This document shows, piece by piece, positions 4,401 through 8,417 of a DNA stretch of 21,727 nt. Every line of letters starts with the position of its first letter. Positions within the stretch are counted from its first letter, which is position 1. The notes under the pieces are model-generated. The model was not told the DNA's origin, searched no databases, and worked only from the letters and a program-made list of their open reading frames with translations. The position numbers and the translations under genes are program-made. The stretch is from positions 1 to 21,727 of IMG/VR virus record IMGVR_UViG_3300010297_000107; one strand, given 5' to 3'. The DNA is from a virus.

Positions 4401-4889
4401 ATGTCACTTTGGACGATTAAAAAAGAATACGAAATAATTTTAAACGATATTATTGATGATGATGGCGTGGTATCAGAACAAGCAGAACAATTATTAGCAA
4501 TTAATGTTGAAAAGCGTGATGATACAGCTACTAATTATTACTACATTATAAACAATCTTCAACATGAAAACGGCCAAATTGATGAAGAAATTAAACGCTT
4601 ACAAGCACTTAAAAAACGCAATAAAACTAAAATAGAATTGCTATCACGTTCAGTTATAGGCTTGATTAATATGTACGGTGAATTTAAATCAAATCTACTG
4701 AATTTTAAAACAAGAAAATCAACCGTTGTTGAAGTAGATGAAGATTCTATCAATGAGCTATTAGAAGAATATAAAACAACTAAAACAACAATAGCACCAA
4801 ACAAAACAGCAATTAAAACAGCTTTGAAAAATGGATTAGAAATAACAGGTTGCCGACTAGTTGAAAAACAAAATTTAAATATTAAATAA
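4401..4889 (+). CDS. Siphovirus Gp157-like protein
   Basis: ATG at 4401 has AAGGAG at 4388-4393. The layout is that of phage Gp157 proteins: an N-terminal helical part, a central charged coiled coil (about 50-80, ENGQIDEEIKRLQALKKRNK) and the diagnostic C-terminus with NKTAIKTALKNGLEITGCRL followed by Lys-rich residues. Gp157 was first described in Streptococcus phage in connection with phage resistance, but its biochemical role is unclear. It very often sits between a single-strand annealing protein and SSB, as here, so a role in recombination or ssDNA handling is likely. It is about the usual size. Confidence 0.8.
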   Translation: MSLWTIKKEYEIILNDIIDDDGVVSEQAEQLLAINVEKRDDTATNYYYIINNLQHENGQIDEEIKRLQALKKRNKTKIELLSRSVIGLINMYGEFKSNLLNFKTRKSTVVEVDEDSINELLEEYKTTKTTIAPNKTAIKTALKNGLEITGCRLVEKQNLNIK

Positions 4890-4901: not shown

Positions 4902-5231
4902 ATGCAAAACTTTACATTAATAGGAATAATTACAAAAGACCTTGAATACAGGATGACAGAGAAAGGGGATGCAATGGTACGCTTAACAGTGCGTGTCCCT
5001 AGTAACAGAAAAGACGAACAAGGGCGGCGTATCAGTGATTTCTTCGATATGACAGCTTGGGGTAAGACCGCAATGTTTTTACAAGAATACTTTAAAAAAG
5101 ATATGCCAATCTGCATACAGGCAACACTTCAAAATCACAAATATGACAAGCAAGGCGTTACTGTATACACCAATAACTTTTTAATTAATAAGGTTGACTT
5201 TGTACCACAGATTAAAAATGAAACAATATAA
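4902..5231 (+). CDS. ssb: Single-stranded DNA-binding protein (OB fold)
   Basis: ATG at 4902 with AAGGAG at 4888-4893. The 109 residues form a single OB fold: NFTLIGIITKDLEYRMTEKGDAM, a central DFFDMTAWGKTAMFLQEYFKKDMP and YTNNFLINKVDFV, all typical of bacterial-type SSB. It binds ssDNA at the replication fork and in recombination. It stops directly after the fold (VPQIKNETI): the acidic C-terminal tip (usually ending DDDIPF) that recruits partner proteins in bacterial SSBs is missing, so it should coat DNA without recruiting host repair enzymes in the usual way. The next gene overlaps it by 14 bases. Confidence 0.92.
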   Translation: MQNFTLIGIITKDLEYRMTEKGDAMVRLTVRVPSNRKDEQGRRISDFFDMTAWGKTAMFLQEYFKKDMPICIQATLQNHKYDKQGVTVYTNNFLINKVDFVPQIKNETI

Positions 5232-5457
5232 AATAATACTAATTATTATTACCTCTTGCTTTTTAGTTTGCTGTGGTAAGCTCCAAACTCAAGCATTGGA
5301 AGACAATAAAAGATATGTAATTTCTAAATATGATAACGGCATTCTTATAGATGAATATATTGCAAACACAGAGGTTTATTTAAAATTCAATGATGAGTAT
5401 ATTATGGCAACCGGAAGTTATACAATTAAGCAAGAAACAGAAATAACCACATATTGA
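5218..5457 (+). CDS. Small lipoprotein-like or secreted protein, 79 residues
   Basis: I start at ATG 5218 because it gives a proper export signal: MKQYK, then a hydrophobic stretch IILIIITSCFLVCCG (residues 6-20). The Cys pair at 18-19 looks like a lipobox, though with an unusual Cys at -1 (LVCC). An upstream in-frame ATG at 5194 would bury the signal. The mature part is short and beta-rich (RYVISKYDNGILIDEYI...). It overlaps the SSB end, has no good Shine-Dalgarno and its TGA stop lies inside the next -35 box. Phage lipoproteins in early operons are often superinfection-exclusion factors; that is only a possibility here. Confidence 0.55.
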   Translation: MKQYKIILIIITSCFLVCCGKLQTQALEDNKRYVISKYDNGILIDEYIANTEVYLKFNDEYIMATGSYTIKQETEITTY

Positions 5458-5487
5458 CATATACTTTAAAAAAAAATAAAGTACAAT
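5454..5487 (+). promoter_or_regulatory. Promoter and inverted repeat at the head of the non-coding region
   Basis: A perfect TTGACA (5454-5459) is followed by TAAAGT (5477-5482, spacing 17) or TACAAT (5482-5487, spacing 22). The spacer carries a perfect inverted repeat TACTTTA (5462-5468) and TAAAGTA (5477-5483) around an A8 loop, a probable operator. It opens a 449-base stretch without any protein gene. Confidence 0.5.
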
Positions 5488-5502
5488 CGGTTATGAAACA
5501 AC

Positions 5503-5533
5503 AGTAGTGTTAGTTGCTCAGGCTAACACTACT
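5503..5533 (+). other. Strong hairpin (11-bp perfect stem)
   Basis: AGTAGTGTTAG (5503-5513) pairs perfectly with CTAACACTACT (5523-5533) around a 9-base loop. It is followed by AATTGCTTTTAA, too weak a T-tract for a confident terminator, though it may attenuate transcription from upstream. Confidence 0.7.
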
Positions 5534-5535
5534 AA

Positions 5536-5565
5536 TTGCTTTTAATACTTTAAATATATTATAAT
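5536..5565 (+). promoter_or_regulatory. Promoter TTGCTT-N18-TATAAT
   Basis: TTGCTT (5536-5541), 18 bases, perfect TATAAT (5560-5565). Predicted start near 5572, about 9 bases before the next long hairpin. Same class as 436-407 (minus) and 5741-5770. Confidence 0.55.
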
Positions 5566-5571
5566 TACAAT

Positions 5572-5738
5572 AGACTATATGATAGCTGTAAGCGTCCTAC
5601 TTGAGAAACTACTCTTGCAGCTATCCCCACACATATTATATAATTACTATTAAGAGATCACGATATGGGGCTGTGCATTACCCTTATGTACAGCATGAAT
5701 GCTTAATTGGGCTATGTTTTTTCATTGCATAGCCCATC
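5572..5738 (+). ncRNA. Candidate structured small RNA
   Basis: No reading frame of note is present, but from the predicted start near 5572 there are three good stems in a row. The first is GATAGCTGTAAG (5581-5592) with CTTGCAGCTATC (5614-5625), 12 bp with one G-U pair. The second is GCTGTGCAT (5670-5678) with ATGTACAGC (5686-5694), 9 bp with one G-U. The third is TGGGCTATG (5708-5716) with CATAGCCCA (5728-5736), 9 bp. CCCC..ATAT (5625-5636) can also pair with ATATGGGG (5663-5670), closing a larger domain. Own promoter upstream and a strong terminator at 5790-5819. No known RNA family recognised; the 3' end is a guess (5738 or 5819). It precedes the replication genes, so a role in copy control or host regulation is possible. 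Confidence 0.45.
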
Positions 5739-5740
5739 AT

Positions 5741-5770
5741 TTGCTTTTACTTATAAGAATAATGTATAAT
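5741..5770 (+). promoter_or_regulatory. Promoter TTGCTT-N18-TATAAT
   Basis: TTGCTT (5741-5746), 18 bases, perfect TATAAT (5765-5770). Any transcript would start near 5777 and meet the terminator at 5790-5819 at once, so it would be a tiny RNA or an attenuated leader of the replication operon. Confidence 0.5.
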
Positions 5771-5789
5771 TATATTGAATTTGTTTAGA

Positions 5790-5819
5790 GGCTACATATT
5801 TTTATGTGGCCTTTTTTTT
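5790..5819 (+). terminator. Rho-independent terminator
   Basis: GGCTACAT (5790-5797) pairs with ATGTGGCC (5804-5811), one G-U pair, with an AT loop and eight T directly after (5812-5819). This is the clearest terminator in the window and separates the non-coding block from the replication operon. Confidence 0.85.
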
Positions 5820-5864: not shown

Positions 5865-5884
5865 TTCACTACCTAAATAGTGAA
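5865..5884 (+). promoter_or_regulatory. Inverted repeat in the leader of the replication operon
   Basis: TTCACTA (5865-5871) and TAGTGAA (5878-5884) around CCTAAA, about 10 bases after the predicted transcription start and 12 bases before the AAGGAG ribosome site. It is a possible operator or leader hairpin. Confidence 0.5.
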
Positions 5885-5906
5885 ATTCTAATATTAAGGA
5901 GTTTCT

Positions 5907-6206
5907 ATGAACAAACAAAAACACATTATATTTTTTATTGGTTTACTGCCTTTTCTAAACGCAAAAGAGGCTTTATTTATGAGTTTTATGATTAATGAAT
6001 TTCTTTTTGCTAATAAAGACTGGTTTTTAGTTACTGCCGATCAAATGTCTTTAAATACTGGGTTATCTAAAACACAACAATTAGCCATTAAAAAACGTTT
6101 ATACGATCTTGAAATACTAGAGACTGAGCGTCGAGGTATCCCCCCTAAGAATTGGTATACAATTAATGCAGATAAACTAAAACAGTATATCCCAGAGGTT
6201 TTATAA
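5907..6206 (+). CDS. Small winged-helix protein, paralogue of the initiator N-terminal domain
   Basis: ATG at 5907 with AAGGAG at 5896-5901. The 99 residues align with the N-terminal domain of the next gene: the block TGLSKTQQLAIKKRLYDLEI followed by ETERRGIPPKNWYTI matches TGLSTDEQRTIKKTLKNKGI followed by KIERRGNPCKNWYTI there. This is a winged helix with recognition helix and wing (about 50-90). It lacks the linker and C-terminal domain. It probably binds similar DNA, perhaps the origin iterons or the operon leader, as a regulator or competitor of the initiator (inference). First gene of the replication operon. Confidence 0.7.
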   Translation: MNKQKHIIFFIGLLPFLNAKEALFMSFMINEFLFANKDWFLVTADQMSLNTGLSKTQQLAIKKRLYDLEILETERRGIPPKNWYTINADKLKQYIPEVL

Positions 6207-6216
6207 GGAGTTCCAC

Positions 6217-7023
6217 ATGAACTATGAAAATTTATTGCTAACGCTTTTAGATAAGCCAATTGTATTTCATCGACCATTTTTGCGAATAATGAATACAAAT
6301 TGCGCTTTATTTTTAAGCCAGTGTTTACATTGGCAACGCCACACTATATACGATAGTTGGTTTGCGCATACTATTCAACAATTTGAGTTTGAAACTGGAT
6401 TATCGACAGATGAGCAAAGAACTATAAAAAAGACACTAAAAAATAAGGGCATCTTAAAAATTGAACGACGAGGCAATCCATGTAAAAACTGGTACACCAT
6501 TGATTTGGAGGTTTTATATACACTTTTAGAAAAACAAGTGGAAAAATCCACAAACAAGGAATGGGAAAATCCCACATCTAGTAATGGGAAAATCCCATAT
6601 CAAGAAAAGGGAAAATCCCATAACTATATAAATAAAGAAGTATTAATAAATAATAATAATAAAATAAAAAGTAATAGTATAAATACTATTACTAAAAAGA
6701 AGTCTAACCATTATCAATTAATTCTTGAATCTTGGAATGCATTTGCCAAAAGTAATGGGTTGTCTGAAATTAGACAATTAACAACCAAGCGTATTAATGG
6801 CATCAAATCCCGCCAAAAAGAAAATGGATTTAACATACAAGAAATATTTAGCTGCATACAAGATTCACCGTTCCTTTTAGGCACTAATGGGAATGATTGG
6901 AAGGCGGACTTCGACTGGGTGTTTTGTAGTCCGAACAACTGGCTAAAAATTGTTGAAGGTAAATACAAAGGGGAAAAAAACAAGAGCCACAAGATAAACT
7001 GCAAAGCATTTTCAATGAATTAA
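6217..7023 (+). CDS. Replication initiator (lambda O-like, winged-helix N-terminus, origin inside gene)
   Basis: ATG at 6217 with AAGGAG at 6206-6211. Residues 1-103 are a winged-helix DNA-binding domain (TGLSTDEQRTIKKTLKNKGI, then ERRGNPCKNWYTI). Residues 108-162 are a low-complexity Asn/Lys/Ser linker encoded by iterons and AT-rich DNA. Residues 165-250 are the C-terminal domain common in phage replication proteins (WNAFAKSNGL, IRQLTTKRINGIKSR, DSPFLLGTNGNDWKADFDWVFCSPNNWLKIVEGKY). This is the architecture of lambda O: origin binding at the N-terminus, origin DNA in the middle of the gene, helicase-side contacts at the C-terminus. It should open the origin at 6538-6700 and recruit the host helicase with a loader (candidate at 7866). 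Confidence 0.85.
   Translation: MNYENLLLTLLDKPIVFHRPFLRIMNTNCALFLSQCLHWQRHTIYDSWFAHTIQQFEFETGLSTDEQRTIKKTLKNKGILKIERRGNPCKNWYTIDLEVLYTLLEKQVEKSTNKEWENPTSSNGKIPYQEKGKSHNYINKEVLINNNNKIKSNSINTITKKKSNHYQLILESWNAFAKSNGLSEIRQLTTKRINGIKSRQKENGFNIQEIFSCIQDSPFLLGTNGNDWKADFDWVFCSPNNWLKIVEGKYKGEKNKSHKINCKAFSMN
6538..6620. repeat. Origin iterons: four palindromes with 23-bp phasing
   Basis: GTGGAAAAATCCAC (6538-6551), TGGGAAAATCCCA (6562-6574 and 6585-6597) and AGGGAAAATCCCA (6608-6620). Centres fall at about 6544.5, 6568, 6591 and 6614, so spacing is 23-24 bp, near two helical turns. They lie inside the initiator gene, as in lambda ori, and are the likely binding sites of its N-terminal domain. Confidence 0.85.
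6621..6700. other. AT-rich unwinding region of the origin, with a 24-bp palindrome
   Basis: About 80 bases almost without G or C directly follow the last iteron. They end in AGTAATAGTAT (6670-6680), AA, ATACTATTACT (6683-6693): a perfect 11-bp inverted repeat with a 2-base centre. This matches the duplex-unwinding element placed beside the iterons in lambdoid origins. Confidence 0.7.
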
Positions 7024-7865: not shown

Positions 7866-8417
7866 ATGAATAACTACGAAAAAACAGTCACAGCAATGAT
7901 TTTGAAAGCCTACGCATTAGTAGGCCAAGAAGACAAGCAAATACAAATTAAAGAATTGGCAAAAGCAATTATCGAAAGGCAGATTGATTTAAAATTGCTT
8001 AATGAGGCATTAAATAAGCATGCTGAGACATCAGAATTTGCACCAAAATTAAAAAATATCATAGATTATGTAAACAATATACCAGATAACCAAGTTAATG
8101 AGTTTTTAGAGCGTTTTCGTAAGCAGGCAAAAAATCCTTATGACTGGAATCCCATTGATGATGACGTTTACACCATAAAACAGATTATTGGCAAAGAACG
8201 ATGTGAGAATTGTCTATCTGAGCATTGGGCATTTATTGAAAAGGAGGCTAAAAAATTATATGTGGATTTGAAAAACAAAAAAATTGAGCTTATTGAAAGC
8301 CCTAATAAGCATAATATTAAACAGATTGCAGGCTCTAATACGGTTTATATTGAAGCTAAAAAGAATGTAGCTAATGGGGTTAATCCATTAAAAAACTTAT
8401 TAAAGGAGTATAAATGA
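7866..8417 (+). CDS. Candidate helicase loader (G39P-like N-terminus)
   Basis: ATG at 7866, 183 residues. The N-terminal 70 residues are helical and end with LNEALNKHAETSEFAPKLKNIIDYV, like the start of phage replicative-helicase loaders/inhibitors of the G39P type, where a helix is followed by an 'xFxPxxxxI' segment. The middle has ERCENCLSEHW, two cysteines and a histidine with metal-site potential. The C-terminus is basic and looks flexible. Position downstream of a lambda O-like initiator is where lambda has its loader P. No DnaB-type helicase is present in the window, which fits use of the host helicase. The family call is weak; position is the stronger argument. Confidence 0.5.
   Translation: MNNYEKTVTAMILKAYALVGQEDKQIQIKELAKAIIERQIDLKLLNEALNKHAETSEFAPKLKNIIDYVNNIPDNQVNEFLERFRKQAKNPYDWNPIDDDVYTIKQIIGKERCENCLSEHWAFIEKEAKKLYVDLKNKKIELIESPNKHNIKQIAGSNTVYIEAKKNVANGVNPLKNLLKEYK

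Follow-up and report, generated by a model that had tools for sequence, protein, structure and literature searches.

Does a replication initiator gene in this viral DNA carry its own origin in the way that lambda O carries ori, and, if it does, what is the part of a further palindrome that lies beyond the presumed melting zone? The DNA analysed here, called the window below, is a 21.7-kb virus record (IMG/VR IMGVR_UViG_3300010297_000107, 21,727 nt). A sequence-only reading had described four palindromes, an A+T-rich block and a perfect 11+2+11 palindrome inside the initiator gene, all of which we find present where it placed them, and had likened them to lambda ori.

Iterons and A+T-rich stretch inside the initiator gene

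The gene at 6217-7023, which with the elements inside it lies on the plus strand, encodes an O-like replication initiator of 268 aa and carries the origin elements. It matches the PHROGs families for 'replication initiation O-like' (phrog_345, E 4e-24; phrog_9773, E 6e-24), and phrog_345, phrog_9773 and phrog_678 match both this initiator and lambda O. The N-terminal part (6217-6525) is a predicted DNA-binding domain, winged-helix-like, which on its homology and on its movement with the iterons is taken as the specificity module; it is up to 37-44% identical to the corresponding domain in many phage initiators that have 23-bp iterons. This N-domain gives no match to Pfam PF04492 (Phage_rep_O), to which lambda O itself scores 6e-36, and therefore the initiator would be lambda O-like in its working and yet lie outside that Pfam family. 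An hhalign comparison of the N-domain with lambda O was not significant, the N-domain profile had no match among solved structures, and the AlphaFold model of the initiator (pLDDT 34) was too low in confidence for a fold search. The C-terminal domain (6709-6972), with the motif ADFDWVF...EGKY, is common to initiators with four different N-domains and differs from that of lambda O. Note also that in six near-identical contigs (L004-L009) the last 14 or so residues (6970-7023) are read in a different frame; the cause is apparently a single base in the A-run near 6975, either a natural frameshift or an assembly error.

Between the two domains lie four iterons: GTGGA-AAAA-TCCAC at 6538-6551, TGGGA-AAA-TCCCA (TGGGAAAATCCCA) at both 6562-6574 and 6585-6597, and AGGGA-AAA-TCCCA (AGGGAAAATCCCA) at 6608-6620. 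The last three have the common core GGGA-AAA-TCCC, and the centre-to-centre distances are 23.5, 23 and 23. The core GGGAAAATCCC is present in the window in 3 copies, with none further even at one mismatch, as against at most 1 copy in dinucleotide shuffles of the whole window (n=100). When the codons were resampled with the protein preserved, four evenly spaced palindromes arose in 0 of 2000 resamplings, with an array of three in one, and three copies of the core arose in 0 of 20000 resamplings of the linker. The iterons encode V-E-K-S-T, W-E-N-P-T, N-G-K-I-P and K-G-K-S-H; since the 23-bp step puts the copies in all three reading frames with different peptides, the repeat is a DNA signal, and its origin as a by-product of a peptide repeat is excluded. 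Iteron palindromes elsewhere in the window, for example as operators, were also looked for, and none was found at one mismatch. Directly after the iterons comes a stretch of 47 nt (6623-6669) with 93.6% A+T, which in its computed fold is hardly structured as a single strand and is the presumed melting zone. GC skew, which had been suggested as a further mark, follows the gene direction and marks no origin here.

The order of the parts, their spacing and the gene family all support the lambda ori architecture. As in lambda, the elements lie inside the gene of an O-like initiator, between its DNA-binding and C-terminal parts, with about four inverted-repeat iterons at 20-24 bp followed directly by an A+T-rich stretch. 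The iteron itself is different, GGGA-AAA-TCCC here and TCCCTC-N5-GAGGGA-like in lambda. Two contrasts with lambda that had been drawn from the sequence do not hold. Firstly, full palindromes are not peculiar to the window, as the lambda iterons are nearly perfect inverted repeats too (PMC5043065, PMC7466680), which O dimers bind and after which comes an A+T-rich region of 40 bp (PMC5043065; also PMC7466680, PMC3349717). Secondly, the period is not different, as the lambda iterons (J02459) start at 39034, 39054, 39078 and 39101, that is, at spacings of 20, 24 and 23 bp. The iteron plasmid origins (RK2, P1, F) likewise have iterons and an A+T-rich melting zone, with the plasmid iterons lying outside the rep gene. 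By contrast with that non-palindromic, external arrangement, the iterons here are palindromic and within the gene. On the plasmids it is monomers of the initiator rather than dimers that bind the iterons (PMC5043065).

Homologous N-domains are present in the Vibrio phages phi 2, X29 and PVP-XSN, Synechococcus phage Ssp-JY37, the Acinetobacter Vieuvirus phages and many proteobacterial prophages. Their initiators have imperfectly palindromic iterons of 22-23 bp in the same linker as here but, unlike here, an iteron core that is TGCGGAAA-CCGCA-like, other C-domains and a melting zone of 12-mers (ACAGAGATTAC). In the wider N-domain family (L098-L106, L192-L344) tandem 12-mers (ACAGAGATTACT/ACAGAGACTAC, peptide TEITTEIT) follow 23-bp iterons, and 12-mer melting zones are found in prophages of Vibrio, Pseudomonas, Acinetobacter and enterobacteria. 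Compared with protein-preserving codon shuffles, 83 non-redundant N-domain relatives have an excess of structure in the iterons, avoid it in the melting zone of 12-mers (mean z +0.8) and have an excess again 10-30 nt past that zone (mean z -0.7), with the standard error of these means near 0.1 if the spread of z is near 1.

The palindrome beyond the presumed melting zone as a probable DNA hairpin

The presumed melting zone is bordered on its far side, 49 nt after iteron 4, by the perfect 11+2+11 palindrome AGTAATAGTAT-AA-ATACTATTACT (6670-6693). As a hairpin, AGTAATAGTA-TAAA-TACTATTACT, it has a 10-bp stem and a 4-nt loop that reads TAAA, or TTTA on the minus strand. When the sequence has to encode SNSINTIT, the probability of such a perfect palindrome is 0.0017, and a perfect palindrome with arms of at least 11 anywhere in the reading frame arose in 4 of 500 resamplings. 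As single-stranded DNA the hairpin has a folding energy of -6.0 kcal/mol (z -5.6), with the A+T-rich stretch staying open.

The palindrome is kept by compensatory change. In an alignment of eleven C-domain loci, which gave 8 distinct rows, 94% of the cells are paired, and three pairs have changed on both sides (A-T/G-C, G-C/A-T and G-C/A-T), where the identical double change of L052 and L062 may have arisen only once; one further change is of the wobble (G-U) type, and in most rows one pair of the stem does not form. Slid controls of the same alignment gave 0 pairs with double-sided change. Since several of the changes alter the peptide (SNSINTIT, SNNINIIT, DNSINTIV), they are not explained by codon need.

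Lambda has a comparable palindrome, GTCAGAGAATTC-TGGC-GAATCCTCTGAC, at 39162-39189, with one mismatch, 43 nt after iteron 4 (-9.4 kcal/mol as single-stranded DNA). The likeness to lambda that had been claimed thus holds, and it is closer than first thought, because this palindrome, at the corresponding place and with similar spacing, had been overlooked. It recurs in phages of Salmonella (loop TGAC), Yersinia (TAAC), Edwardsiella (TAAC) and Klebsiella (TGGC). In the window, by contrast with lambda, the stem is A+T-rich, the loop is TAAA and the palindrome covaries, whereas most E. coli relatives of lambda have an uncompensated A-to-C change in it. The functional lambda ori is 39034-39160 and ends just before the palindrome (PMC3349717), and therefore the palindrome is maybe dispensable for melting and any role may come after it. 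In a literature search no function was found for the palindrome beyond lambda's melting zone.

The same C-domain family (ADFDWVF-like) occurs in Bacteroides, Ruminococcus and Roseburia phages (BS-TP2, phiRgPS_6, Shimadzu), which have hairpins upstream of the C-domain, such as ATACTCC-TGAC-GGAGTAT in BS-TP2, although their N-domains and iterons are unrelated to those of the window. We took 59 non-redundant distant relatives of the C-domain and scored the stems in the 130 nt 5' of it. A fold-energy profile aligned on the C-domain start had no clear peak, because the distance of the hairpin varies, and the stems were counted directly instead. Perfect stems of at least 6 bp number 43 in these 130 nt, against 12.8 in shuffles, and 15 inside the C-domain, against 18.7. 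Loops of the form T..C (TAAC, TGAC, TGGC and others) number 11 against 0.12 expected, where the idea of TNNC came from about eight loci before the 59 were counted and 8 of the 11 remain when two contigs seen earlier are left out. Loops of the form T..A number 9 against 0.37 expected, 7 of them being TAAA, the window's own loop, with the window and L065, the source of the TAAA idea, outside the 59 loci. Examples are AGGGATAC-TAAA-GTATCCCT, ACTTCTGA-TAAA-TCAGAAGT, GAACTTAC-TAAC-GTAAGTTC and CATTCC-TGAC-GGAATG. Under the consensus T[AG]N[AC], which was fitted after counting, there are 19 hairpins with stems of 6 bp or more, where protein-preserving shuffles give 0.38 (maximum 2 in 60 shuffles) and the reverse-complement loop gives 1; these 19 lie in 10 kb of linker, whereas the other 213 kb of these loci hold 2. 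In the window, 6670-6693 is the sole such hairpin on the plus strand.

The palindrome is thus a member of a hairpin class in which the loop, on one strand, is kept and the stem varies. Such hairpins are not present everywhere, because among 15 mixed gammaproteobacterial O-like loci, where some reading frames were possibly mispicked, no TNNC hairpin was found. A hairpin with a stem of at least 5 bp is present in 22 of 61 C-domain loci and is absent or imperfect in about two thirds; the N-domain relatives have a structured spot after the 12-mers but few T-R-N-M loops. A first scan of genome contigs with the close C-domain alignment gave no relatives. The T of the loop is at the third codon position in 22 of 27 cases, a bias that we read as the phase where the wobble positions pair mutually, and which shows that coding constraints shape the hairpin element.

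The palindrome as a symmetric protein site is rejected, for the stems are variable and the asymmetric loop is kept on one strand only; conservation of the loop with a variable complementary stem on one strand points to a single-strand hairpin, not to a duplex-bound dyad. A primase start site (CTG/CTA beside the loop) was also considered and dropped, as it suits most TNNC loops and not the TAAA loops. The minus-strand loops here are TTTA and GNNA, and the GNNA loops have in most cases a C-G closing pair. Both are unusually stable DNA tetraloops, and for this reason we favour DNA over RNA. It is an unlikely but still serious alternative that the hairpin acts in the initiator mRNA, either in translation control or by folding of the origin transcript during transcriptional activation. 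The strand asymmetry would suit RNA as well as a DNA strand, the type D alleles described below have U-G wobble pairing in the sense RNA, and transcription through lambda ori is required (PMC5043065); however, the sense RNA loops UAAA, UAAC, UGAC and UGGC belong to no standard class of stable RNA tetraloop, and there is no evident reason why an mRNA element should lie just where the melting zone ends.

Exchange of initiator halves and the proposed mechanism

The close relatives from IMG/VR include natural chimeras. In two of them (L010, L011) the N-domain is about 92% identical to that of the window and the iterons are the same, with iteron 1 unchanged, while the C-domain is another one and no such palindrome is present. 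The C-domain of the window also stands behind three further types of N-domain, each with its own repeats: type B (L012, L013, L017) with ATACCCCTATAGCC at 24 bp, type C (L014, L020, L022) with ACGGAAAACCCGGT at 15 bp and type D (L016, L018, L019) with CGAACAACAAACGAACA at 11-23 bp. The palindrome is present in all of types B, C and D, and their similarity to the window starts at it. Where the N-domain is replaced in the relatives, the iterons are replaced along with it. From this pattern it follows that the iterons belong with the N-domain and the palindrome with the C-domain. The sequence-only reading, which was right about the position of the palindrome, had overlooked that it is part of the C-domain module and not of the iterons. 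That reading had also held that loss of the repeats with the linker kept would speak against it; among the relatives the outcome is in its favour, the iterons staying wherever the N-domain stays. Between the window and L010, 27 codons are synonymously changed in codons 2-73 versus 5 in codons 74-145, which contain the iterons, a drop that recent exchange could also produce. In lambda, too, the module of N-domain and iterons is swappable against a fixed module of palindrome and C-domain: in E. coli lambdoids three iteron types (CCCTCAAAACGAGGG, TTTACCTGAATCAGGTAAA, GTGTCACCAAAACGGTGACA) are joined to one C-domain just 5' of lambda's palindrome. The initiator genes thus consist of two exchangeable halves, one for recognition and one for helicase recruitment, which always meet at the same point.

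In a rival reading the iterons and the A+T-rich stretch are the origin and the palindrome is only a homology joint for swapping initiator halves, its identity kept by recombination and not by function. This agrees with the onset of similarity at the palindrome between phages of different N-type, with the position of the junction in the lambdoids, with the two recombination junctions that the lambda record annotates there and with two contigs (L023, L025) that start at the palindrome. However, recombination needs identity, not self-complementarity, and the three pairs changed on both sides are still paired; moreover, the distant relatives have the same loop class on quite different stems. We therefore regard a mere homology joint as quite improbable.

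Our preferred reading is that the initiator gene very probably houses a theta-type phage origin of the lambda O/ori kind, with the palindrome as its fourth part. It is argued for by the O-like family, the iterons beyond chance in three frames and the lambda-like order and distances; by the N-domain relatives, which generally have 23-bp iterons, a structure-avoiding zone and then a structured spot; by the joint movement of N-domain and iterons and the drop in synonymous change over the iterons; and by the covariation of the palindrome, the enrichment of the hairpin class and the neighbouring SSB gene. Counting against it are the GC skew, the absent PF04492 match, the end of lambda ori at 39160 and lambda's uncompensated A-to-C change.

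In the mechanism that we propose, the N-domain (residues 1-103) would bind the four palindromic iterons as dimers, and the bound array would melt the A+T-rich stretch, as in lambda. The C-domain, probably together with the product of 7866-8417, would bring the host DnaB helicase to the open strands. The palindrome, inherited with the C-domain, would fold once the melting zone opens, and the folded hairpin may keep the zone open or may dock the complex of C-domain and loader on one strand. More generally, we tentatively propose, as a serious possibility rather than a probability, that a strand-specific DNA hairpin is the fourth cis element of O-type origins. It would have the loop TTTA/GNNA on the strand complementary to the initiator mRNA and would lie at the far edge of the melting zone; the C-half of the initiator or the helicase loader would read it and be inherited together with it, and lambda's palindrome would be one case. 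Should the hairpin class prove real and functional, a large phage group would have a further structural step after the melting of the origin and before the loading of the helicase, and the class suggests which half of the initiator uses the hairpin; lambda ori is a textbook origin, and yet the hairpin would be an overlooked working part of it.

Neighbouring genes

The gene at 7866-8417 (plus strand) is the best candidate for the P function, that is, a candidate helicase loader analogous to lambda P. It occurs with the C-domain behind different N-types, being 80-90% identical in nine C-domain loci, downstream of the C-domain, and had no match beside L010 and L011 in the flanking DNA searched. 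Four of ten members weakly match phrog_2289 'helicase loader' (best E 0.003); the AlphaFold model of its product (pLDDT 48) was too low for a fold search. Upstream of the initiator gene are a Gp157/Gam-like gene (4401-4889), an SSB gene (4902-5231), which is close to the initiator gene, and a solo winged-helix-like gene (5907-6206), whose product is a 40-42% identical paralogue of the initiator N-domain and is a candidate regulator or competitor. The remaining genes around the initiator are mostly of unknown function.

This paralogy would fit the repeats being autoregulatory operators for the solo domain or the initiator, with replication starting elsewhere, a reading that is very improbable, as the solo gene also stands beside type D initiators with unrelated iterons (L016, L019), the repeats lie 320 bp into the gene with an A+T-rich stretch after them, and a separate leader palindrome is better suited as an operator. 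That palindrome, TTCACTA-CCTAAA-TAGTGAA (5865-5888), lies between a promoter and the solo gene, is conserved in L016 and L019 and is a probable operator; a similar one, TCACTACCAAATAGTGA, lies upstream of the type C initiator L020.

The intergenic stretch at 5458-5817 is a candidate structured phage RNA of about 330 nt. A promoter-like TTGACA...TACAAT lies near 5456; three strong hairpins follow, at about 5508-5533, 5580-5626 and 5708-5734, and then, at about 5790-5817, a hairpin with T8 that is taken as a terminator. Mainly the 3' part of the stretch is common to L016 and L019, and an Rfam search, which included this stretch, gave no match. Finally, at 1084-2642 two adjacent genes are built of repeats of about 25 residues (DREVVLEAVKQDG...ALEYASEELRG).
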